29,467 nucleotides of DNA from a virus, in IMG/VR virus record IMGVR_UViG_3300017758_000076, positions 1 to 29,467 of that record. The stretch is one strand, 5' to 3'. How positions within the stretch are numbered: position 1 is the stretch's first letter; each line of letters begins with the position of its first letter. Positions 1,510 to 24,931 of this stretch are shown in pieces. The notes below the pieces were generated by a model. It worked only from the letters and a program-made list of their open reading frames with translations, did not search any database and was not told the origin of the DNA. The position numbers were made by a program, and so were the translations under genes.

Positions 1510-3255
1510 TTATTCTGGTGCAACGTCTGTAGGAGGTGCTGTTCCACTAATTGGTGATGCTCCACCGCCTTCATTATCTTGCACATCTTCACCTGGATCT
1601 AGTTCTGGCGCCGCCGGTACAGGACTTGCTCCCACTGAGCCTAATCCTTCTGCACCTGGTCCCATAGACTGAGGCATTGTATCTTTATTTTCTTCTGCCC
1701 ACATTTTCTCATTTTCAAAAATTTCTTCTTGTGACATTTTTAAGAATCTCTTCATTGCAAATCGTTTACTAATGTAAGGTGCAGTATTAACTTGATTGAA
1801 TATGTTAACAAGTTGTGTGTCTAATTCAATTTGTCTGTACTTGCCAAAGTTTTGTGGTTCATTGAATTGTAATTCAAATGATCCTGAATCAATTTCAATT
1901 CCTCTATGCTTCAAGAACATTTTAAATTCTCTGTCAATGGCAGGTTGAATAAATGATTGTAGACGTTTACAGAATTTTGTAAATCTATATTCTTGTATGT
2001 AGGCTGTACCTACTCTACCATCTGTGAAAGCTGTTTGTGGATCATTTGGTGTTGAAGGCAAGTATGCACTTGGCACTCTTAGACCTTTCATCAATTTATC
2101 ATTGAAATATCTCAAGTCATCTATTTCACCTAATTGTGTTCCACCTGGTAATGTTTCAACTTTAGATCCTCTGCCCTCTGCCGTTTGAGCAAAGAAATAA
2201 TCTTCAATCATTGATAATGGATTGTATGTTGCGTCCATTATGTTTGTTCCACCACCTGATTGGTTTGGAATTCTTCTTTGGTGTATTTCGTTTTTAACTC
2301 TTTCAATAAAGCCCATTGCTTTAGTTGTTGGCATATTACCTACATCAATATAGAACACTCTTCTTTCAGGTGCTCTTTGTACTCTGTAGATTATAATTGC
2401 GTCTTCTAGTAATTCTTTTTGTTTAAAAGTTTTAAAGATTGGTTCAAGTATTGATATACCAAAAGGCCAAAATCTATCCATGCCTTCTGTCATACTTAAA
2501 TGTACAACGTGTGATGCATCAATTGGATGTACTGTAGCATCTTTTTGAAATCTTGAACCGTAAGTACCACCTTGTCCTGATGTTTGCGGTCCACCGCCCA
2601 TTGATCCACCTCTAGCTTGAGTTGAACCAAAGCCACCAATTGGCATTGGTGATGTAGTTGCATATCCCATTGGCGTATTAAACTTTGAATATGAGTCTGA
2701 TGTTAAGTTAAGATTTTTAACATTAAGATCTAAGTTTCTAATAAAGTAGGCTTCAGGTCTTTTACCTTTACCTTCGTTGACAACAATCTTGTCTACAAAA
2801 CTTTGATCAACCCAATACCATTTGTATGTTTGTGGGTCTCTTACAAAGATTTGATCTCCATACTTTAGAGTGTTACGAACCATTTTGAAACAACGTTTGT
2901 TCCATTGGTTAATTTTGTTCCACTGATTTAGTGCATCACTTAATAACGATACTTCAGTGTCTGTTGGATCATCTTTATAATGTACATTAAAAGGTGATTT
3001 GTTTTTTTCATCAATCTGTGTACAAAATTCTGCAATGGTATCTAGTGCTGAATTGATCTCAGTATCTAGGTCCATCATGTCATATTGATAATAACGTTCA
3101 ACCCTGTTTGGTTGTCCAGCATATACTTCTGGTAACCATGAATTGTATTTGGAATTTGATGCTGTATTTGGGTTGACCGTAGGTGTGATACTGCCCATCG
3201 CTGAACGCGAACCAGTTGCTGTATCGTAGGGTTTAAAGTATTTTCTCCAACTCAT
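1510..3255 (-). CDS. 20: portal vertex protein gp20
   Basis: A 581-residue T4-type portal protein (T4 gp20 is 524). The dodecameric portal sits at one head vertex, initiates head assembly and is the DNA entry/exit channel and terminase dock. Visible family features are the N-terminal MDLDTEINSALDTIAEFCTQ segment (about residues 60-80), the wing/stem region with QRAPERRVFYIDVGNMPTTKA, and the clip/crown part with LRYFNDKLMKGLRVPSAYL and DGRVGTAYIQEYRFTKFCKR. A Gly/Ser-rich insertion lies around residues 200-240 (GSTQARGGSMGGG), and the C-terminal 60 residues are Pro/Gly/acidic and probably disordered. It is first in the minus-strand head block, before the small head gene and the gp67-like gene. 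A consensus late box ends 6 nt before the ATG, so the mRNA is predicted to be leaderless. No Shine-Dalgarno is present. Confidence 0.93.
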   Translation of the reverse strand: MSWRKYFKPYDTATGSRSAMGSITPTVNPNTASNSKYNSWLPEVYAGQPNRVERYYQYDMMDLDTEINSALDTIAEFCTQIDEKNKSPFNVHYKDDPTDTEVSLLSDALNQWNKINQWNKRCFKMVRNTLKYGDQIFVRDPQTYKWYWVDQSFVDKIVVNEGKGKRPEAYFIRNLDLNVKNLNLTSDSYSKFNTPMGYATTSPMPIGGFGSTQARGGSMGGGPQTSGQGGTYGSRFQKDATVHPIDASHVVHLSMTEGMDRFWPFGISILEPIFKTFKQKELLEDAIIIYRVQRAPERRVFYIDVGNMPTTKAMGFIERVKNEIHQRRIPNQSGGGTNIMDATYNPLSMIEDYFFAQTAEGRGSKVETLPGGTQLGEIDDLRYFNDKLMKGLRVPSAYLPSTPNDPQTAFTDGRVGTAYIQEYRFTKFCKRLQSFIQPAIDREFKMFLKHRGIEIDSGSFELQFNEPQNFGKYRQIELDTQLVNIFNQVNTAPYISKRFAMKRFLKMSQEEIFENEKMWAEENKDTMPQSMGPGAEGLGSVGASPVPAAPELDPGEDVQDNEGGGASPISGTAPPTDVAPE

Positions 3256-3332: not shown

Positions 3333-5558
3333 TTATTTGTGTAATACAGTTTGTATGTTGGTATTGGATTTTTTCAATAGATCAATCAATGTTGTCATCT
3401 GTTCTTGGGTAATAACACCGTTTGCCGCAATCTCTTTCAGGTAATCTTCTGGTTTTTTCTCTTGATTAACATAACTTTGTGCATCACCAAACATTGGCAT
3501 TATTCTAATTTTGCTTCTAGATCTTGCAGAAGAACCAACTCCGGCAGACCCTTGTCCACTATAATTGGAGCCATCTATATTAAAATTACCAGTACTTGTA
3601 TTTCCTCCAAGTACTTTTCCTGAAGAATAATATTGACCATCATTTTCATTTAATTTTTTTATTGCCGCGGCCACGTGTTCGGGATCAACCATTCCATCTT
3701 TTGCCGCTTTAAAACCGGCAGTTCCTGGTGTGGTCTGCATATAACCAAGCATACTAATATTACCAGTTACTCTCATCATCTCGTAAAGAATTTTTCTTCG
3801 TTCTGCATCAGCTTGGCCTGGTCTACCGGTCGCAACATTATTATATTGATCTCGTAATGCATCAAGTTTACCTAGTTTTTCTTTATTCATTCCTGTTGGT
3901 AATTTTTCAGCTAAACTTCTTTGCAGTGACGCACCTATGGCGCCTGCCGCTGTGTGGAACATACCACTCATGAATCTAGTAATACCATTCATAATTTTAT
4001 TGATCATGCCAAATATTCCATTGTTTGGATCTGAGATAAAGTTTGCTAATTTATTTCCTAGGTCTGCAATATAGTTTCCAAAATTTTCAATTGCTTTGAT
4101 CACACCATCTGTTAAAAATGCTAATGCCAATTTGTTAAATGCAACTCTTAATATTGTCATTGTTCTAGATAGTCTTGATTGTACCTGTGCTAACTCGCCT
4201 GGTTTTAATTCAGCTTGTGCTCTGGCCATCTCTTTGAAGTCATTGGTAACAACATCAATGTTTTCAGACAAATTAGAAAGTTTGATAACTGCATCTGCCA
4301 TTGGCACCCCAGCTATCTCTAATGCTTGTAATCTTCTTCTATCAATTTTTCCAACCCTAATTACATTTTCTCTAAATGCATCTAGTCCTGCCGCAACATC
4401 ATCTGTTCCTCCTCCACCGGAAATAATTTTATTCAATTTTTCCAATGAAGAATAAAGTCTAGGTGATACAGTCAGTAGTTGTCTTGCTGATTCATCAAAT
4501 GCCAATGTACCTCTACCAATACCTTGTGACAACATACTAGACAGTTGTCCACCTATCTCAGGACCAAATGCGGCCAAACCTGCAAAACCAACCTGTGCTG
4601 ATTTCAAAGAATTCTGTCTCATAAAGTCTGGTAGCATTCTCATTCTATTTGTGAACGATGCCATTATTGATGCTTGAGCCACCATGGATCTAATTACATC
4701 TGCTGATACTTTAGTAAGTGAAGAGAACTGCTGAGTTACTCTTAAAACTTCTACTGTATGATCTGCAAGATTTTGTCCATCGGCTTGAACAGCAATACCC
4801 ATTCTTCTAAATAGTTCTGCTTGTTCACCAACTTGTTCATTTAACTCTGCTACAGACAAACCTAATAGTCCTTGTGAGTCTAATGTTTTTTGAACCACGT
4901 TAGAGGCATCAAACAATGTTGTGCCAAACACATCTATTGCTTTGCTGTATTGTGTCACGTATTCTGCCGCTTCGTCTACTGTCATACCTGCTTTTGCGGC
5001 CGACACACCCAGTGATGCTATTCCGTTTGCCACACCTTCTGTGGCCTGGAAATCAAAGAAACCTCCTCTAAATAGTGTTGCTTCTAATCTTCCCAACTTC
5101 ATTAAAAACTTGAATGCTGTTGTTACTCCATGTACAAGTCCAACTAGTGCCGCAACACCAACATTTAAAAATCTTGTGAACTTGCCAAGACTACCAAACA
5201 CATTACTAAAAGCACTCCCAACGGTTCCACTAGGTGAAGCCATTTTTTCTACTGCTGATACTAGTTTGGAATTGCCTTTTGACTGTTCTTGAAGTGCTTT
5301 CTTTTGAAGTTTGATTTCTTCTTGATCATTTCTTTTTTGTCGTGCGTCTTCTTTTGTTTGTTGCTGATGTGCTTTTTTTGTAGCTGTTGCTTCGGCTTTA
5401 TTTCCTTCTCTGAGTATTTTAGAAATAAGTTTGCTATCGCCAGCGGCCACTCTAAGCTGTTCTTTAAGAATCTTTGCAATTTGCTGTATGCTCTCTTCAT
5501 AGGCAAATTCTGGTATTCTTACCTGTTTTCCATCTAATTCTATATCAATATATTTCAT
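3333..5558 (-). CDS. tail tape-measure-like protein (gp29-type)
   Basis: A 741-residue protein built like a tail length-determining protein. It has a charged, coiled-coil-prone N-terminal quarter (residues about 20-105, Lys/Gln/Glu rich), a hydrophobic segment (about 129-150, LNVGVAALVGLVHGV), and a long Ala/Gln/Leu-rich helical middle with further amphipathic or hydrophobic stretches (around 470-560). The C-terminus is Gly/Ser-rich and ends in a short helix. T4 gp29 is 590 residues; tape measures vary in length with the tail. Its neighbour across the divergent promoter is gp26 with the frameshifted gp51-like frame, and in T4 genes 26, 51 and 29 lie close together in one cluster. The tape-measure role is an inference from architecture and context; I see no catalytic motif. 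The start at 5558 gives MKYIDIELDGKQVRIP and lacks a strong Shine-Dalgarno. Confidence 0.68.
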   Translation of the reverse strand: MKYIDIELDGKQVRIPEFAYEESIQQIAKILKEQLRVAAGDSKLISKILREGNKAEATATKKAHQQQTKEDARQKRNDQEEIKLQKKALQEQSKGNSKLVSAVEKMASPSGTVGSAFSNVFGSLGKFTRFLNVGVAALVGLVHGVTTAFKFLMKLGRLEATLFRGGFFDFQATEGVANGIASLGVSAAKAGMTVDEAAEYVTQYSKAIDVFGTTLFDASNVVQKTLDSQGLLGLSVAELNEQVGEQAELFRRMGIAVQADGQNLADHTVEVLRVTQQFSSLTKVSADVIRSMVAQASIMASFTNRMRMLPDFMRQNSLKSAQVGFAGLAAFGPEIGGQLSSMLSQGIGRGTLAFDESARQLLTVSPRLYSSLEKLNKIISGGGGTDDVAAGLDAFRENVIRVGKIDRRRLQALEIAGVPMADAVIKLSNLSENIDVVTNDFKEMARAQAELKPGELAQVQSRLSRTMTILRVAFNKLALAFLTDGVIKAIENFGNYIADLGNKLANFISDPNNGIFGMINKIMNGITRFMSGMFHTAAGAIGASLQRSLAEKLPTGMNKEKLGKLDALRDQYNNVATGRPGQADAERRKILYEMMRVTGNISMLGYMQTTPGTAGFKAAKDGMVDPEHVAAAIKKLNENDGQYYSSGKVLGGNTSTGNFNIDGSNYSGQGSAGVGSSARSRSKIRIMPMFGDAQSYVNQEKKPEDYLKEIAANGVITQEQMTTLIDLLKKSNTNIQTVLHK

Positions 5559-5660: not shown

Positions 5661-6515
5661 ATGACAACAAACGAAAAACCAAGTAACCCACTAAAGCAAT
5701 ATTATAGAGCACCTAAACTTTATACTAGTTTGCCATCTGCGGGTCAATACGACAGCACAGAAGAAAAGTCAGCTTCAGGTGAAGTGGCTGTGTATGCCAT
5801 GACTTCTAAAGATGAATTGACTTTGAGAAATCCAGATGCATTGTTAAATGGCGAAGCTGTTATACAACTTATTAAAAGTTGTGTTCCAGATATTGCTAAT
5901 GCAAGAGCATTGCCAGTATGCGATGTTGACATATTGTTAATTGCAATACGTATGGCAACATATGGAGAAATCATGGAGACAAAAATTAGATCTCCACATG
6001 GTGCCAAAAGAGAAGATGAATATAGTGTGAACTTGAACGTCATACTTGAAAATGTACGACCAATAATGCCTGATCCAAATGTTGTTTTGAGCAACGGCAT
6101 TGTTTGTTATGTTCGTCCGTTTACATATAATACACAAACAAAATTAAATCTGTTGGCTTACGACCAAGCCAAAGCAATTCGTAACATTGAAGATGCTGGT
6201 GGCGAAGGATCTAATCCTGAACTGTCGCAATTTAAAACCATGTTTGTGAAATTAGCTGATCAGAACACAGACTCCATGGTTGAATCTGTTGTTAAAATTA
6301 CCACACCTGATGGTGATACTGTTCTTGATAAAGCACAAATCAAAGAATTCTTATTAAATTTAGATGCTGTCAGCATCAAAAAAATTGATAATAAGATAAT
6401 TGAGCTCAACCAATCCTCAAGCACCGTAAAACAAAAATTTGTTTGTAAAGAGACCAACGAAGAATTCGAATCGGAAGTGAGGCTCGACCCTGCGGATTTT
6501 TTCGTAGCTTCTTAA
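5661..6515 (+). CDS. 26: baseplate hub assembly protein gp26 (zero-frame product)
   Basis: A 284-residue member of the T4 gp26 base-plate family (T4 gp26 is 208 residues). Gp26 acts with gp51, gp28 and gp29 to build the central hub of the baseplate. Recognisable parts are the N-terminal RAPKLYTSLPSAGQYD, then YAMTSKDELTLRNPDALLNGEAV and DILLIAIRMATYGE in the middle. The C-terminal FVCKETNEEFESEVRLDPADFF aligns with the position where relatives carry a Cys-containing strand. The start has a good ribosome site (AGGAAAAAAA). A slippery heptamer lies at 6497-6503, four codons before the TAA (6513-6515). A -1 shift there would extend the protein into the following gp51-like frame, giving about 357 residues. 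Both the short and the extended form are likely made. Confidence 0.83.
   Translation: MTTNEKPSNPLKQYYRAPKLYTSLPSAGQYDSTEEKSASGEVAVYAMTSKDELTLRNPDALLNGEAVIQLIKSCVPDIANARALPVCDVDILLIAIRMATYGEIMETKIRSPHGAKREDEYSVNLNVILENVRPIMPDPNVVLSNGIVCYVRPFTYNTQTKLNLLAYDQAKAIRNIEDAGGEGSNPELSQFKTMFVKLADQNTDSMVESVVKITTPDGDTVLDKAQIKEFLLNLDAVSIKKIDNKIIELNQSSSTVKQKFVCKETNEEFESEVRLDPADFFVAS
6497..6503 (+). promoter_or_regulatory. -1 ribosomal frameshift site T TTT TTC
   Basis: In the gp26 frame the codons are GAT TTT TTC GTA. The heptamer T-TTT-TTC fits the X-XXY-YYZ rule, so both tRNAs re-pair perfectly with TTT TTT after a -1 slip. The new frame then reads CGT AGC TTC and stays open to 6733. A purine-rich, Shine-Dalgarno-like stretch (GGAAGTGAGG) ends about 14 nt upstream, as in bacterial -1 sites with an upstream stimulator. 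No close downstream pseudoknot is obvious; a weak hairpin (GCGAC with GTTGC) lies about 35 nt further on. Confidence 0.8.
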
Positions 6516-6733
6516 TAACACACTCTCCTTCTGAGATAGCGACGTACTTCGAAGAGTTGCAAAACGATCAACGACAGATCAGACAAAGTGTTTGGGAAGT
6601 GATGTGGTATATGCGTGGATCAATATCAATGAATGAGGCATGGGGACTTACGTTTGAAGATAAAAAACAAATACAAGAATTCTTAAAAGAAAATCAAGAA
6701 AGATTTAAAGGTGCCATGTCACCAATTGTTTAA
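6503..6733 (+). CDS. 51: gp51-like hub assembly domain, reached by -1 frameshift from gp26
   Basis: The -1 frame relative to gp26 encodes 76 residues from the slip site, ending in a protein-like helical domain. Key stretches are SEIATYFEELQNDQRQI, VWEVMWYMRGSISMNEA and WGLTFEDKKQIQEFLKEN. The stop is at 6731-6733. There is no ATG in this frame before about 6602 and no ribosome site, so the first half of the domain could not be made by independent initiation at ATG. In T4, gene 51 follows gene 26 directly, and both act in hub assembly with the tape measure gp29. Here the two appear to be encoded as gp26 plus a gp26-51 fusion, as lambda makes gpG and gpGT for its tape measure. The gp51 label is from position and domain character and is moderately sure; translation of the frame is well supported. 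Confidence 0.72.
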   Translation, partial: RSFLITHSPSEIATYFEELQNDQRQIRQSVWEVMWYMRGSISMNEAWGLTFEDKKQIQEFLKENQERFKGAMSPIV

Positions 6734-7480: not shown

Positions 7481-8944
7481 ATGACTAAGAAATCAAACAA
7501 AAATATAGATAAACCTATCTGCAACGCACCATTTACATCAGCTTATTACTTTGGGCTGAGAGGTAATTTGGGTTTTTGCTGTGCATGGGAAGATGACGAA
7601 CAGCCGTATTACAAAGTACACAAAGACGGAGCTCCGGAAGATTTTTGGACTAGCAAATACGCCCAAGACATCAGACAACAAATGCTTGACGGTGAATGGC
7701 CCAAGGGATGTTCTGGTTGTAAGTGGCACGTTGAACGAGGACTAGAATCAGATATAGCTGGGTTTGAATCAATACCTGTAGATAAAAAAGACTTTGATGT
7801 TGTGTACGGAAATACCACACATAAAAAACCAGTGTATTTGGATTACAGGCCAGACAATTTATGTAACTTGTCGTGTATACAATGTAGTCCCGCCAATAGC
7901 TCAATAATTGAAAACTTTGGAGACAAAGAAACATGGGGCATAGGTCAAGACACATGGCGTGGCTCTTTAAAAACACTTAAAGAAAATAAGGATAGACATC
8001 ATGAAATAGAACAGTTTGTAAATGAACATCTTTTACATCAAGGATTGTTACAAATAAAAGTACTTGGTGGAGAGCCTACTATCAATGCTGGTGTGCAAAG
8101 AACTTTAAAACATTTGATTGATAAGGACTATGCTAAAGATATTAGATTAAAGGTTACAACAAATTTTACTAATCTTAATAAAACATACGAACTGTTTTCT
8201 CATTTCAAAGAAGTTAGTGTAACTGCTAGTATCGATGGTGCAGGAAAAACATACGAATATGTCAGACACCCAGCCAAATGGAAAGTTGTTAAAAAAAACA
8301 TATTGACTTTCATGGAAAAATATCTAACCAAGCCAGGATATTCACTTTCCGTAAACACCTGTATGATGGCCCACATGGCTTTTACGTTAACAGATTGGTT
8401 ATCTGAATTGTCAGATATTTGGTTTCGAGAAAGACTTCATATTGTGGGTAAACAAGGTATAGATAACTTGTGGGGAAATATTTCTATAATACCTGTACTT
8501 GAGCCTCACTCAACCATTAATGCAATACCCAGTAAATTCATAAATGATATTTTACATGAATTAGAAACATTAAAGAAAACACTAAATGGAAGAAACAAAA
8601 CGTTTGTAGATGAAATAACTAAATTAGGCTTGAAGCCAAACGACTGGCCGTACGTAGGCACACCAGACTACCTCATTGACAAACTGATAAAAGTATTTCA
8701 AGATCACAAGTATGATGAACAGGCTCACTATGCATGGGCAGTAATGGCCGTGGCACAGCACAACTTTAAAAATTGTGATCTCACAAAATTAGATCCACGT
8801 TTCCTAGAGATGTTTGATATGCTTGACGAAGGAACCGTGTTTATAAAACATAAATTTTATTATCCAGATACTTACAAATCATGGAAGAAAAACAAAGAAA
8901 AAGATCCTAATTTTAAATTTTTTCCAACTGCAAAAAAGCCCTAA
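7481..8944 (+). CDS. twitch/SPASM-type radical SAM protein
   Basis: A 487-residue radical SAM enzyme. The [4Fe-4S]-binding CxxxCxxC motif is C128-NLS-C132-IQ-C135, and the SAM-binding GGEPT motif is at 196-200. Additional cysteines (C14, C33, C34, and CSGC at 77-80) lie in the N-terminal part, in the IC-NAPF and GFCCAWE context known from twitch-domain radical SAM proteins. They may bind an auxiliary cluster. Such proteins recur in marine T4-like phages without an established substrate. Radical SAM enzymes use SAM to generate a 5'-deoxyadenosyl radical for difficult C-H chemistry, often on peptides. The gene stands alone on the plus strand, followed by a long structured non-coding stretch and a nuclease gene. 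Two 2OG-Fe(II) oxygenases nearby add to a theme of post-translational or small-molecule modification. The enzyme class is certain; the substrate is unknown. Confidence 0.88.
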   Translation: MTKKSNKNIDKPICNAPFTSAYYFGLRGNLGFCCAWEDDEQPYYKVHKDGAPEDFWTSKYAQDIRQQMLDGEWPKGCSGCKWHVERGLESDIAGFESIPVDKKDFDVVYGNTTHKKPVYLDYRPDNLCNLSCIQCSPANSSIIENFGDKETWGIGQDTWRGSLKTLKENKDRHHEIEQFVNEHLLHQGLLQIKVLGGEPTINAGVQRTLKHLIDKDYAKDIRLKVTTNFTNLNKTYELFSHFKEVSVTASIDGAGKTYEYVRHPAKWKVVKKNILTFMEKYLTKPGYSLSVNTCMMAHMAFTLTDWLSELSDIWFRERLHIVGKQGIDNLWGNISIIPVLEPHSTINAIPSKFINDILHELETLKKTLNGRNKTFVDEITKLGLKPNDWPYVGTPDYLIDKLIKVFQDHKYDEQAHYAWAVMAVAQHNFKNCDLTKLDPRFLEMFDMLDEGTVFIKHKFYYPDTYKSWKKNKEKDPNFKFFPTAKKP

Positions 8945-11683: not shown

Positions 11684-12763
11684 CTATTTATTCCAGCCGT
11701 ACCTCTTCCAGCTGTTTGGCATCAATGCATTTAATTTTTCTTTATCTGGGTCTCCGTGTATAATCATATGTAATCTTGCTTTGTTTGAATTGTTATGTAC
11801 CCAATGTATTGTGCCCACATTCCATATAAAAGCTGTGCCAGGTGCATACGGAATCATTCCCCAATCTTTAACATAAACGCCAGCACCATTTGGATTACTA
11901 ATAGCTAGATTAAAACCCATGCATCTATTTTCAGCATCTTGGTGAGGTAAAATATATCCACCGGGTTCAATCCATGAAAATCTAATTCTAGAATAATTTT
12001 TTAACGGAAAATCATGCATAAAAAATCTTTTAGTTATTGGACATTCGTCTGCCAGTTCAGTCCAATCTGGTTTTGGTTTGGTTGGATATTTTGTTTTGTC
12101 AACACCAACATAGTCATAGCCAGATGTGATATCAGAAGCCAAACCAAATAGTGTTGTTGCATTCCAAGTACCACCAGCTTCATCTGATCTATGCATAAGC
12201 GATTTGTTTTTTACATTAATGGCTTCCATATACATTTTTTCATGCGGAACTTTTAAATCTAACTGTAGCCATGGGTATGGGCAGTCATCACTCTCAAACC
12301 AATTCCACAAATCTTTATCTTTTTTTGGAAAATTATATGGCCTTTCGATGTAAGCTTCTTTCCATAATTTTAACATTTTTTCTGCAGTCAAGTTTTTTAC
12401 CAATTTACTATTAATATAATCCGAATTGTTATATCCTAAAATTAATTGAAATATAGGACTTAAACCATACTTTGCTTCCAACGTAGGCATTCTTTTATTA
12501 TCTATTTCATTAGGAATAAAGAAATCAATTTGTTGTTTTTGGCAATAAGACCTTACGTATTTGTTGATAGCAGATTCTCCTGGGTTACAAACGAACACCA
12601 AATCTTTCCCCTCAACAAATTTTGCTACAGAATTTTTGTTATAAGGCATTTCCAAAAAGTCAAACTGAAATCTTTTTTCGTTTTTCAATAAATTTGCAAT
12701 AGCCTCGCTCAACCTAGGACCTTCAATATGACCTATAACTCCAACTTTAATCTGCATAACCAA
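11684..12763 (-). CDS. 2OG-Fe(II) oxygenase, aspartyl/asparaginyl beta-hydroxylase-like, with extra N-terminal domain
   Basis: A 359-residue protein of two parts. Residues about 150-359 are an aspartyl/asparaginyl beta-hydroxylase-type jelly-roll: W264-x-EPGG, the iron ligands H274-Q-D276 (ILPHQD), a distal His in GTIHWVHNNS (H320 or H323), and the 2OG-binding R330 (NKARLHMIIHG). Residues 1-145 form an additional domain beginning IKVGVIGHIEGPRLSEAI with a Rossmann-like strand-loop-helix and GKDLVFVCNPGES, absent from the paralogue next door. The catalytic half is clearly homologous to the 219-residue neighbour, with the same WLQLD/YLQLD opening, CPIT/CPTT and EPGG blocks. The genes overlap by 17 bases, so they are translationally coupled. 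Substrate unknown. The iron-ligand set is intact, so it is likely active. Confidence 0.8.
   Translation of the reverse strand: MVMQIKVGVIGHIEGPRLSEAIANLLKNEKRFQFDFLEMPYNKNSVAKFVEGKDLVFVCNPGESAINKYVRSYCQKQQIDFFIPNEIDNKRMPTLEAKYGLSPIFQLILGYNNSDYINSKLVKNLTAEKMLKLWKEAYIERPYNFPKKDKDLWNWFESDDCPYPWLQLDLKVPHEKMYMEAINVKNKSLMHRSDEAGGTWNATTLFGLASDITSGYDYVGVDKTKYPTKPKPDWTELADECPITKRFFMHDFPLKNYSRIRFSWIEPGGYILPHQDAENRCMGFNLAISNPNGAGVYVKDWGMIPYAPGTAFIWNVGTIHWVHNNSNKARLHMIIHGDPDKEKLNALMPNSWKRYGWNK
11685..11692 (-). promoter_or_regulatory. possible late promoter variant (AATAAATA) for the DUF5856 gene
   Basis: AATAAATA overlaps the stop codon of the upstream oxygenase gene, about 34 nt before the DUF5856 ATG. 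One mismatch from consensus. The A-rich context makes a chance match quite possible. Confidence 0.25.
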
Positions 12764-13406
12764 ATTTCTCCCAACTTCTTTCTAATATATCAATCCATTC
12801 TTTGTAATGTCTTTTACCATGTGCAATAATATGTAATCTAACTTTATTGGAGTTATTAATAACTTCATGATGTTGTCCAACATCAATTAAAAATGCTACT
12901 CCGGGTTTAAATGGTACTGTGCCTTTGTTTTTAAAATTAAAATCACAACCATCCGGATTATTAATTGCTATATTAACCGGCGTGAATGTTCTTTGTTCGC
13001 TGTCTCTATGCAAACTAATTTTTCCACCTGGTTCAAGCCACATAAATCTTAGTCTTTTGTATTGTCTATATGGAAATTTATTTTTAAAATATTCTGTAGT
13101 AGTAGGACATTGATCAGCAATATCTGTCCATTTGTAATCAATTTGATCTTCTGTTAAACCTTTGTTTTCTTCGTACTGTTCCCAAGCATTGGTTTTAGTA
13201 GAACTAATACCATGCAGGCAAAGACTAGACCAGCCGCCTCCCTGGCCATAATCTCTATGTGAGACAGCCTGATCTTTAACCGCTGATGCTTCTTTATAAA
13301 TTTCTTCATAAGGAATATCATTAATATCTAGTTGCAAATACGGAATAGTTTTATCTTGCTCTAACCATTCCCAAATATCTTTGTCTGTGTTTGGGTTCAT
13401 ACACAT
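12747..13406 (-). CDS. 2OG-Fe(II) oxygenase, aspartyl/asparaginyl beta-hydroxylase-like (single domain)
   Basis: A 219-residue stand-alone oxygenase domain. The motif chain is WLEPGG (123-128), H133-R-D135 (SLHRD), a distal His in VGQHHEVINNS (H179 or H180), and R190 in NKVRLHIIAHG. These supply the Fe(II) facial triad and the 2-oxoglutarate salt bridge of the aspartyl/asparaginyl beta-hydroxylase family. Family members hydroxylate protein side chains or small amino-acid substrates; here the substrate is not known. It is the first of a tandem duplicated pair. The ATG at 13406 (MCMNPN) and an in-frame ATG at 13400 both lie in or beside the 3' arm of a 12-bp hairpin, so initiation may be controlled by RNA folding. 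No Shine-Dalgarno is visible. Confidence 0.8.
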   Translation of the reverse strand: MCMNPNTDKDIWEWLEQDKTIPYLQLDINDIPYEEIYKEASAVKDQAVSHRDYGQGGGWSSLCLHGISSTKTNAWEQYEENKGLTEDQIDYKWTDIADQCPTTTEYFKNKFPYRQYKRLRFMWLEPGGKISLHRDSEQRTFTPVNIAINNPDGCDFNFKNKGTVPFKPGVAFLIDVGQHHEVINNSNKVRLHIIAHGKRHYKEWIDILERSWEKFGYAD

Positions 13407-24370: not shown

Positions 24371-24931
24371 TTATAATATATGATCAGCTATGCCAAGGTC
24401 AATCAATTGTTTTGCCGTAAAGTATTGATCACTAGGCGAATCTAATTTTTTCTTAACAGAAGCCATTGTTTTTCCAGTTGCTTCTTTTAATATTCTAAAA
24501 CATCTCTCTTCACAATTATGGTTTTCTTGCATTTGAGATTTCATATCATGCATTTTAGATTCCATTGCATCTGAATGCTGATGATTCATGATACCAGTAT
24601 TTTGTCCAATATATCTTTCGCCATGTTTACCACAAGCAAATATTAAAAAAGCGGCACTCATTACAGCACCAACTCCGATAGTACTAATGTTGTGATAGCT
24701 GTCTCTCATGACATCAATCAACGCAAACGACTCGTATAGATCACCACCTGTTGAGTTGATATACAACTTTAAAGTACGTTTTGGTTTTTTATTTAGGTTA
24801 GCAGTCACTATCCATTTGATAGCACGAGCTATATTCTCTTCGCCAATTTCGCCTGATAGATAATGAATATCGTTATCAAGTAGCAACGACTCAATTTTAT
24901 CATCAGCACTAAAATTTTCAAATTTCTTCAT
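24371..24931 (-). CDS. clpP: ClpP-like serine protease
   Basis: 186 residues with the ClpP fold: INSTGGDLYESFALID (oxyanion/handle region near 58-73), nucleophile S92 in GVGAVMSAAFLIFACG, and H117 in TGIMNHQH. The S-to-H spacing of 25 equals that of bacterial ClpP. The acidic member is D164 or D168 before YFTAKQLIDLGIADHI. The bacterial HQP motif reads HQH here. Phage ClpP proteins are common in marine T4-like phages and may join host Clp ATPases or act alone; prohead maturation is normally by gp21, an unrelated protease. The gene is driven by a consensus late box about 33-40 nt upstream, so expression is expected late. Followed closely by a 99-residue hypothetical gene. Confidence 0.88.
   Translation of the reverse strand: MKKFENFSADDKIESLLLDNDIHYLSGEIGEENIARAIKWIVTANLNKKPKRTLKLYINSTGGDLYESFALIDVMRDSYHNISTIGVGAVMSAAFLIFACGKHGERYIGQNTGIMNHQHSDAMESKMHDMKSQMQENHNCEERCFRILKEATGKTMASVKKKLDSPSDQYFTAKQLIDLGIADHIL

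Follow-up and report, generated by a model that had tools for sequence, protein, structure and literature searches.

The window, i.e., the whole stretch of DNA analyzed here, is a virus record of 29,467 bases (IMG/VR IMGVR_UViG_3300017758_000076). It carries a T4-like gp26 gene with a slippery heptamer close to its stop codon, an open −1 frame that continues past this stop, and a large divergent gene next to it:

3333..5558, minus strand: 741-aa gene divergent from gp26, presumed from its size and place to encode the tape measure protein
5661..6515, plus strand: gp26 gene, short form (TAC-N), 284 aa, by profile match to PF12322 and phrog_150
5661..6733, plus strand: whole predicted frameshift product (TAC-NC), about 357 aa, probable counterpart of T4 gp51 by profile comparison
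6473..6482, plus strand: SD-like GGAAGTGAGG, present in the window; SD core in 1/8 window-clade clusters, not conserved
6497..6503, plus strand: slippery heptamer TTTTTTC, in register as T TTT TTC; T6(C/T) in 107/111 clusters
6497..6733, plus strand: −1 stretch of 78 codons and a stop, predicted C-terminal domain (TAC-C) of the long form, with coding bias and a helical AlphaFold2 model

The gp26 protein scores 57.4 bits against PF12322 (T4_baseplate; cut-off 24.5) and matches phrog_150 (baseplate hub) with an E-value of 1.3e-20. Profile comparison of gp26 from the window's group with T4-family gp26 gave 96.2%, and by its PF12322 match and profile homology the window gene belongs to the T4 gp26 family. 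Its AlphaFold2 model is confident (pLDDT 85, pTM 0.81) and resembles predicted gp26-type proteins of other phages (best E 1e-24, TM 0.86; TM up to 0.87), and searches of solved structures by sequence and by fold gave no convincing match to gp26. Other T4-like parts encoded in the window are the portal protein gp20 (1510-3255), gp53, and gp25. A Clp-type protease gene (24371-24931, minus strand; PF00574, E 1.9e-31) lies amid the T4-like structural genes. Further observations in the window are an adjoining pair of aspartyl/asparaginyl beta-hydroxylase-like genes (11684-12763 and 12747-13406, minus strand; PF05118) and, beginning about 750 nt past the −1 stretch, a gene for a radical SAM-like protein of 487 aa (7481-8944, plus strand), which scores 27.5 bits against PF04055, a little under the curated cut-off of 29.5.

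In the zero frame, the 3′ end of gp26 reads gaT TTT TTC GTA GCT TCT TAA, which confirms that T TTT TTC stands at 6497-6503 in the codon register of gp26 and near its stop, as the earlier note on this DNA had observed. Its second observation, a −1 frame open to 6733, holds as well: the frame is open from 64 nt upstream of the gp26 stop codon through the TAA at 6731-6733 and translates from the heptamer onward into FFRSFLITHSPSEIATYFEELQNDQRQIRQSVWEVMWYMRGSISMNEAWGLTFEDKKQIQEFLKENQERFKGAMSPIV. Within the 78 codons of this stretch, the earliest ATG is codon 36 and the earliest TTG codon 21.

Conservation of the site was analyzed in relatives of gp26, which were clustered at 90% identity into 115 clusters, of which 111 were counted. 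The four clusters left out, all without the heptamer, are T4, two Ackermannviridae, and a doubtful 24% partial hit (L110). Two loci whose contig stops short of the gp26 stop (L108 and L114) were dropped before counting, as was one without a match in the scan (L111), and several that the main scan had missed (L038, L039, and L041-L044) were inspected separately. The named jumbo records are 16 fetched out of 62 matches, and the cyanophage-type scan kept 80 loci out of at least 598 matching ones. Scans with gp26 of PA5oct and of Atu_ph07 yielded three loci and one locus, respectively, and a search of genome contigs gave no relative.

An in-register T6(C/T) run, i.e., a heptamer of the form X XXY YYZ, is present near the 3′ end of the short gene in 107 of the 111 clusters (105 TTTTTTC, 2 TTTTTTT), and the other four carry AAATTTT. 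By group, all 8 window-clade, all 14 named jumbo, and all 70 cyanophage or other T4-like clusters have the T6 run in register, as do 15 of the 19 further contig clusters, the remainder being the four with AAATTTT. In these (L066, L102, L103, and L106), the T run is one base shorter, AAATTTT stands in register, and the −1 frame still encodes FF. Counted by locus, 187 have a readable gp26 end (this number includes contigs fetched twice, whose duplicates were removed by clustering), with T6 in 177, AAATTTT in six, and neither in four. The relatives with the site comprise IMG/VR contigs, jumbo phages (RaK2, 121Q, PA5oct, CBB, and Atu_ph07), cyanophages, and phi-ST2, down to an identity of 23%. All of the first 13 viral-contig relatives (57-100% identity) and the 16 fetched jumbo records (23-36%) have the in-register run, in the form TTTTTTC except for Stenotrophomonas phage RAS14 (TTTTTTT). 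TTTTTTC is also found in Synechococcus phage S-RIM8, Delftia phage PhiW-14, Vibrio phage phi-ST2, and Aeromonas phage ZPAH1, and TTTTTTT in Methylophilales phage Melnitz-1. Across the 111 clusters the heptamer starts between 7 and 40 nt upstream of the gp26 stop codon, so that the spacing to the stop is not the conserved property.

Inspection of the gp26 end in two Ackermannviridae, Klebsiella phage T765 and Vibrio phage VAP7, revealed no canonical heptamer. In the Ackermannviridae (gp26 relatives L035 and L036), an open −1 frame follows gp26 and its product is similar by eye, with the canonical heptamer absent; these phages possibly slip at a shorter site or use a coupled start.

The −1 stretch of the window clade is under coding selection. 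In the window clade (eight clusters), comparison of the 216 nt past the gp26 stop shows that the first, second, and third codon positions of the −1 frame differ 523, 393, and 1068 times, respectively (pairwise sums). Synonymous and nonsynonymous codon differences amount to 607:671 in the −1 frame and to 107:1260 and 84:1284 in the other two, and the third-position and synonymous bias is confined to the −1 frame. Past the gp26 stop, the −1 frame contains no stop codons and the other frames contain 42 and 40; the whole −1 stretch is free of stops in 8/8 clusters. Thus, a conserved coding −1 frame extends across the stop of the short gene in all eight. The earlier note had named conservation of the heptamer and of the −1 frame at aligned homologous junctions as the check on its proposal, and this is borne out by the T6 run in 107/111 clusters and by the coding −1 frame of the window clade.

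The −1 domains of 16 and of 26 sequences can be aligned with a mean column identity of 42% in each case, and Leu6 is invariant in both alignments; the FF in them results from the way in which the stretches were excised, and L099 was left out of alignment A5 for its short −1 stretch (54 codons). In agreement with the helical domain read from the translation in the earlier note, the AlphaFold2 model of the −1 domain is helical (pLDDT 82, pTM 0.53). A search of PHROGs with the −1 domain gave a match, and a weak one, for one of 26 members.

The −1 domain could alternatively be the product of a separate small gene, translated through reinitiation or coupling at the gp26 stop, with no fusion being made. 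Most fetched relatives are annotated in this way: 14 of the 16 fetched jumbo records contain a small separate CDS that covers the −1 stretch in part, with 0/16 marked as joined, and the CDS is called “baseplate hub assembly catalyst” in S-RIM8 and “baseplate hub assembly” in Melnitz-1. Moreover, an ATG near the gp26 stop (−6..+20) occurs in 47/70 cyanophage-type and 9/33 jumbo-type clusters; none of ATG, GTG, or TTG precedes codon 15 in 19/70 and 20/33 clusters of these types, respectively. In the window clade, however, such a near-stop ATG is found in 0/8 clusters, an ATG ahead of −1 codon 15 likewise in 0/8, and 7/8 have no ATG, GTG, or TTG before this codon, i.e., no independent start for the downstream domain. 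Where the near-stop ATG does exist, an SD core precedes it in 0/45 cyanophage-type and 1/10 jumbo/other clusters (a grouping slightly different from that of the start-codon count), and this scarcity weakens the case for a separate start in cyanophage- and jumbo-type phages. Conservation of the −1 frame also begins at the heptamer, ahead of any ATG, and a separate gene would leave the in-register T6 run unexplained. We regard a separate gene as improbable and favor programmed −1 frameshifting into this stretch.

In T4, genes 26 and 51 lie next to each other and are transcribed divergently, from the minus and the plus strand, respectively. Our gp51 family profile of seven sequences, in which avDM5 is represented by an annotated hypothetical protein chosen by position, matches the cyanophage-type gp26+(−1) product over gp51 residues 6-252 (99.3%, E 2.4e-20). 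T4-family gp26 is itself related to gp51 across the first ∼200 residues of the latter (99.1%), and the cyanophage-type −1 domain matches gp51 residues 207-252 (95.8%) and no other part of gp51. The fusion profiles of the cyanophage type and of the window group correspond over most of their length (99.4%). Direct comparison of gp51 with the window-group fusion is weak (37.2%, E 3.5e-4), as are the comparisons of the window-group −1 domain alone with gp51 (22.8%) and with the cyanophage-type −1 domain (24.0%); control profile comparisons with gp25 stayed under 1%. Since gp51 aligns over its full length with the cyanophage-type fusion, the predicted frameshift product is best read from these profiles as the counterpart of gp51 (TAC-NC), with the −1 frame as its C-terminal part, and not as gp26 joined to gp51. 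The earlier note had proposed a gp26-gp51 fusion with a “gp51-like” −1 frame; the −1 domain indeed fits the C-terminal part of gp51, but it is the fusion as a whole that appears to correspond to gp51.

Among the phages examined, seven have a separate gene 51 (T4, Phi1, avDM5, TG1, Octan, Aes508, and IME341), and in none of them do the last 90 nt of gene 26 contain an in-register slippery heptamer; the −1 frame after gene 26 runs into gene 25 in these phages. By profile comparison, T4 appears to encode the same two proteins, but from two genes on opposite strands and without the heptamer.

A divergent ORF of 629-834 aa is located directly upstream of gp26 in 36 of the 41 window-type and jumbo-type clusters, and several named records label this neighbor “structural protein”. 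In S-RIM8 and phi-ST2, a large gene lies downstream of the gp26 locus on the same strand. In an alignment of ten of these neighbor proteins, the other nine are 13-20% identical to that of the window. No homology was detected between T4 gp29 (two sequences) and the neighbor group profile (1.2%), so that the 741-aa neighbor is presumed to be the tape measure protein from its size and place. Profile comparison likewise found no homology between the neighbor gene and the downstream gene of cyanophages, and among eight named records the first 207 residues of T4 gp29 have a relative only in T4 and Phi1.

Taken together, the gp26 locus is very probably a −1 programmed frameshift gene that encodes a short (TAC-N) and a long (TAC-NC) tail assembly chaperone. 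In this model, gp26 would be the TAC-N of a T4-like phage, and the efficiency of slippage, as we infer it, would leave most ribosomes to terminate at its TAA. A minority would slip back by one base at T TTT TTC, with tRNA-Phe in both the P and A sites, and would continue in the −1 frame to produce the 357-aa TAC-NC with an extra helical domain of ∼75 residues. During tail assembly, both forms would act on the tape measure protein by coating or folding it, like G and GT of lambda, and T4 and its close kin would make the same two proteins from separate genes, 26 (short) and 51 (long).

A further possibility is that the frameshift is real and that its long product is a structural part of the baseplate hub instead of a chaperone of the tape measure protein. 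The T4 annotation lists gp26 and gp51 among baseplate hub and hub assembly proteins, and PF12322 is named a base plate protein. Passages in papers that cite earlier work on TAC genes (PMC12846349, PMC10885494), however, put those of T4-like phages in the chaperone class, and the record of Octan names gp26, gp51, and gp28 tape measure assembly chaperones. As the short/long architecture and the place beside a large gene also fit a chaperone of the G/GT kind, we judge a structural hub role very unlikely and retain the chaperone reading.

The six-T homopolymer at the site might also point to RNA polymerase slippage, rather than ribosomal slippage, as the source of the long form. Polymerase slippage usually requires longer homopolymer runs, and the four AAATTTT clusters, with only five T, keep the register for a ribosomal tandem slip, which makes a transcriptional origin extremely improbable.

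Phe-Phe at the slip place is encoded as T TTT TT(C/T) in 107 of 108 clusters including T4, which has G TTC TTT, and the codon preceding the heptamer specifies S, N, D, A, H, R, or Y. Of the 337 Phe-Phe pairs at other places in these loci, 15 are written T TTT TTC (window clade 1/28, other contigs 4/40, named jumbo 4/22, cyanophage type 6/247), a control count that covers every ATG-started frame of at least 150 codons, some of which are not genes. The clusters share descent and are not independent trials, and we therefore give no p-value. Although 16 diverse gp26 sequences all retain F280 and F281, the view that the T run is kept solely because the protein needs Phe-Phe there, with the −1 reading incidental, can practically be dismissed given this difference in codon usage, the coding selection on the downstream −1 frame, and the four clusters with a shorter T run, which lose the zero-frame FF and yet keep both slip site and −1 FF through AAATTTT.

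At the window-clade site, we found neither a conserved SD element nor a conserved structure that could stimulate slippage. The SD-like element to which the earlier note had drawn attention is present upstream of the heptamer, but its SD core is restricted to the window's own cluster (1/8 of the clade), and we rejected it as a conserved stimulator. Downstream of the heptamer, the window clade shows no structure (mean z −0.41 vs. −0.10 and −0.68 for control stretches) and no consensus pairs, the z of the window itself being 0.73. Ungapped RNAalifold, run on each of the three groups separately, also gave no structure. Folding is somewhat stronger than in control stretches outside the window clade, with a mean z of −1.13 in the jumbo/other group (33 sequences; controls −0.41 and −0.37) and −1.26 in the cyanophage type (65 sequences; controls −0.73 and 0.12). 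In the cyanophage type, an SD core is found 5-20 nt upstream of the heptamer in 48/66 clusters compared with 125/1260 gp26 control stretches, an excess to which a conserved protein motif at this place may contribute.

A two-tier hairpin of 18 pairs starts one base past the heptamer in a single contig subclade (11 sequences; e.g., L073 1468-1534, alignment A6). Its positions pair in 92.4% of cells, compared with 46.0 and 55.6% after a shift by one position, and three pairs are changed on both sides, a number reached in 9/500 shuffles; the subclade was picked after viewing single folds, the structure was taken from one member, and the sequences tested exclude L066 and L103, whose T run is shorter, as well as other clusters of contigs. 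Relatedness and sequence choice can inflate such a signal, and we consider the hairpin suggestive as a stimulator in this subclade. The usual spacer between a slip site and its stimulatory structure is longer than the distance to the foot of this hairpin, so that only the upper part of the hairpin could act. Some −1 sites work without any stimulator.

The G and GT proteins of lambda are reportedly −1 frameshifted chaperones (Xu, Hendrix & Duda 2004). The gp26 locus shares with them a short and a long product, slippage (predicted here) near the end of the short gene, and a place near the (here presumed) tape measure gene. It differs in its heptamer, which in lambda is GGGAAAG, and in orientation, as the lambda genes are co-directional with the tape measure gene; the likeness drawn here is one of architecture. 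TAC genes in diverse T4-like phages are said to have been described by Vladimirov, Gautam & Davidson 2022 (Virology 566:9-15), who reportedly found frameshifting conserved in several T4-like groups and T4 to use separate genes 26 and 51. In passages of later papers, poly-T frameshift signals in the TAC-N genes of T4-like phages (phage Adele paper, PMC12846349) and a two-gene TAC form in some T4-like phages (PRFect, PMC10885494) are both credited to Vladimirov et al. 2022. As far as these passages describe it, that system agrees with ours in gp26 as the short form, a poly-T −1 signal, and separate genes 26 and 51 in T4; in our case, gp26 and the presumed tape measure gene are transcribed divergently. 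The TAC locus of Vandenendeviridae/Andersonviridae, as outlined in the phage Adele paper (PMC12846349), resembles the locus studied here in the conserved poly-T at the end of TAC-N and the uniformly open −1 frame, but its motif is GTTTTT. Thus, the concept of a frameshifted TAC gene is already published for T4-like phages and the locus is known in kind. Among the matches listed for frameshifting in RaK2-type jumbo phages, no paper addressed it by title or the start of its abstract, which says little.

The core of the earlier proposal, a −1 frameshift that yields gp26 and a long form in the manner of lambda G and GT, is therefore supported, while its wording on gp51 and its SD element need to be changed. 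The link that it drew from T4 genes 26 and 51 to the G/GT chaperones is one that passages of the citing papers (PMC12846349, PMC10885494) already make for T4-like TAC genes, and is not new.

Beyond the locus itself, we tentatively suggest a wider scenario, which we hold to be possible rather than probable. The T6C site may have stayed fixed across very divergent T4-like phages while its helpers changed, with an internal SD in the cyanophage type, a two-tier hairpin in one contig subclade, and none visible in the window clade, and it may have been lost in the T4 line as the long form came to be encoded by a separate gene. Opposite transcription in the jumbo and window types would uncouple the chaperone from the presumed tape measure gene, so that the ratio of short to long form, and not co-transcription, would set the loading of the tape measure protein.

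For the annotation of many phages, our analysis means that what is annotated as a small “hypothetical” or “gp51” ORF after gp26 would encode the C-terminal part of a frameshift protein. If different stimulators do act at one fixed slip site, the T4-like phages would offer a natural series in which their effects could be tested. For the family as a whole, the 111 sequence clusters provide comparative support for T4 gp26 and gp51 as short and long tail chaperones.
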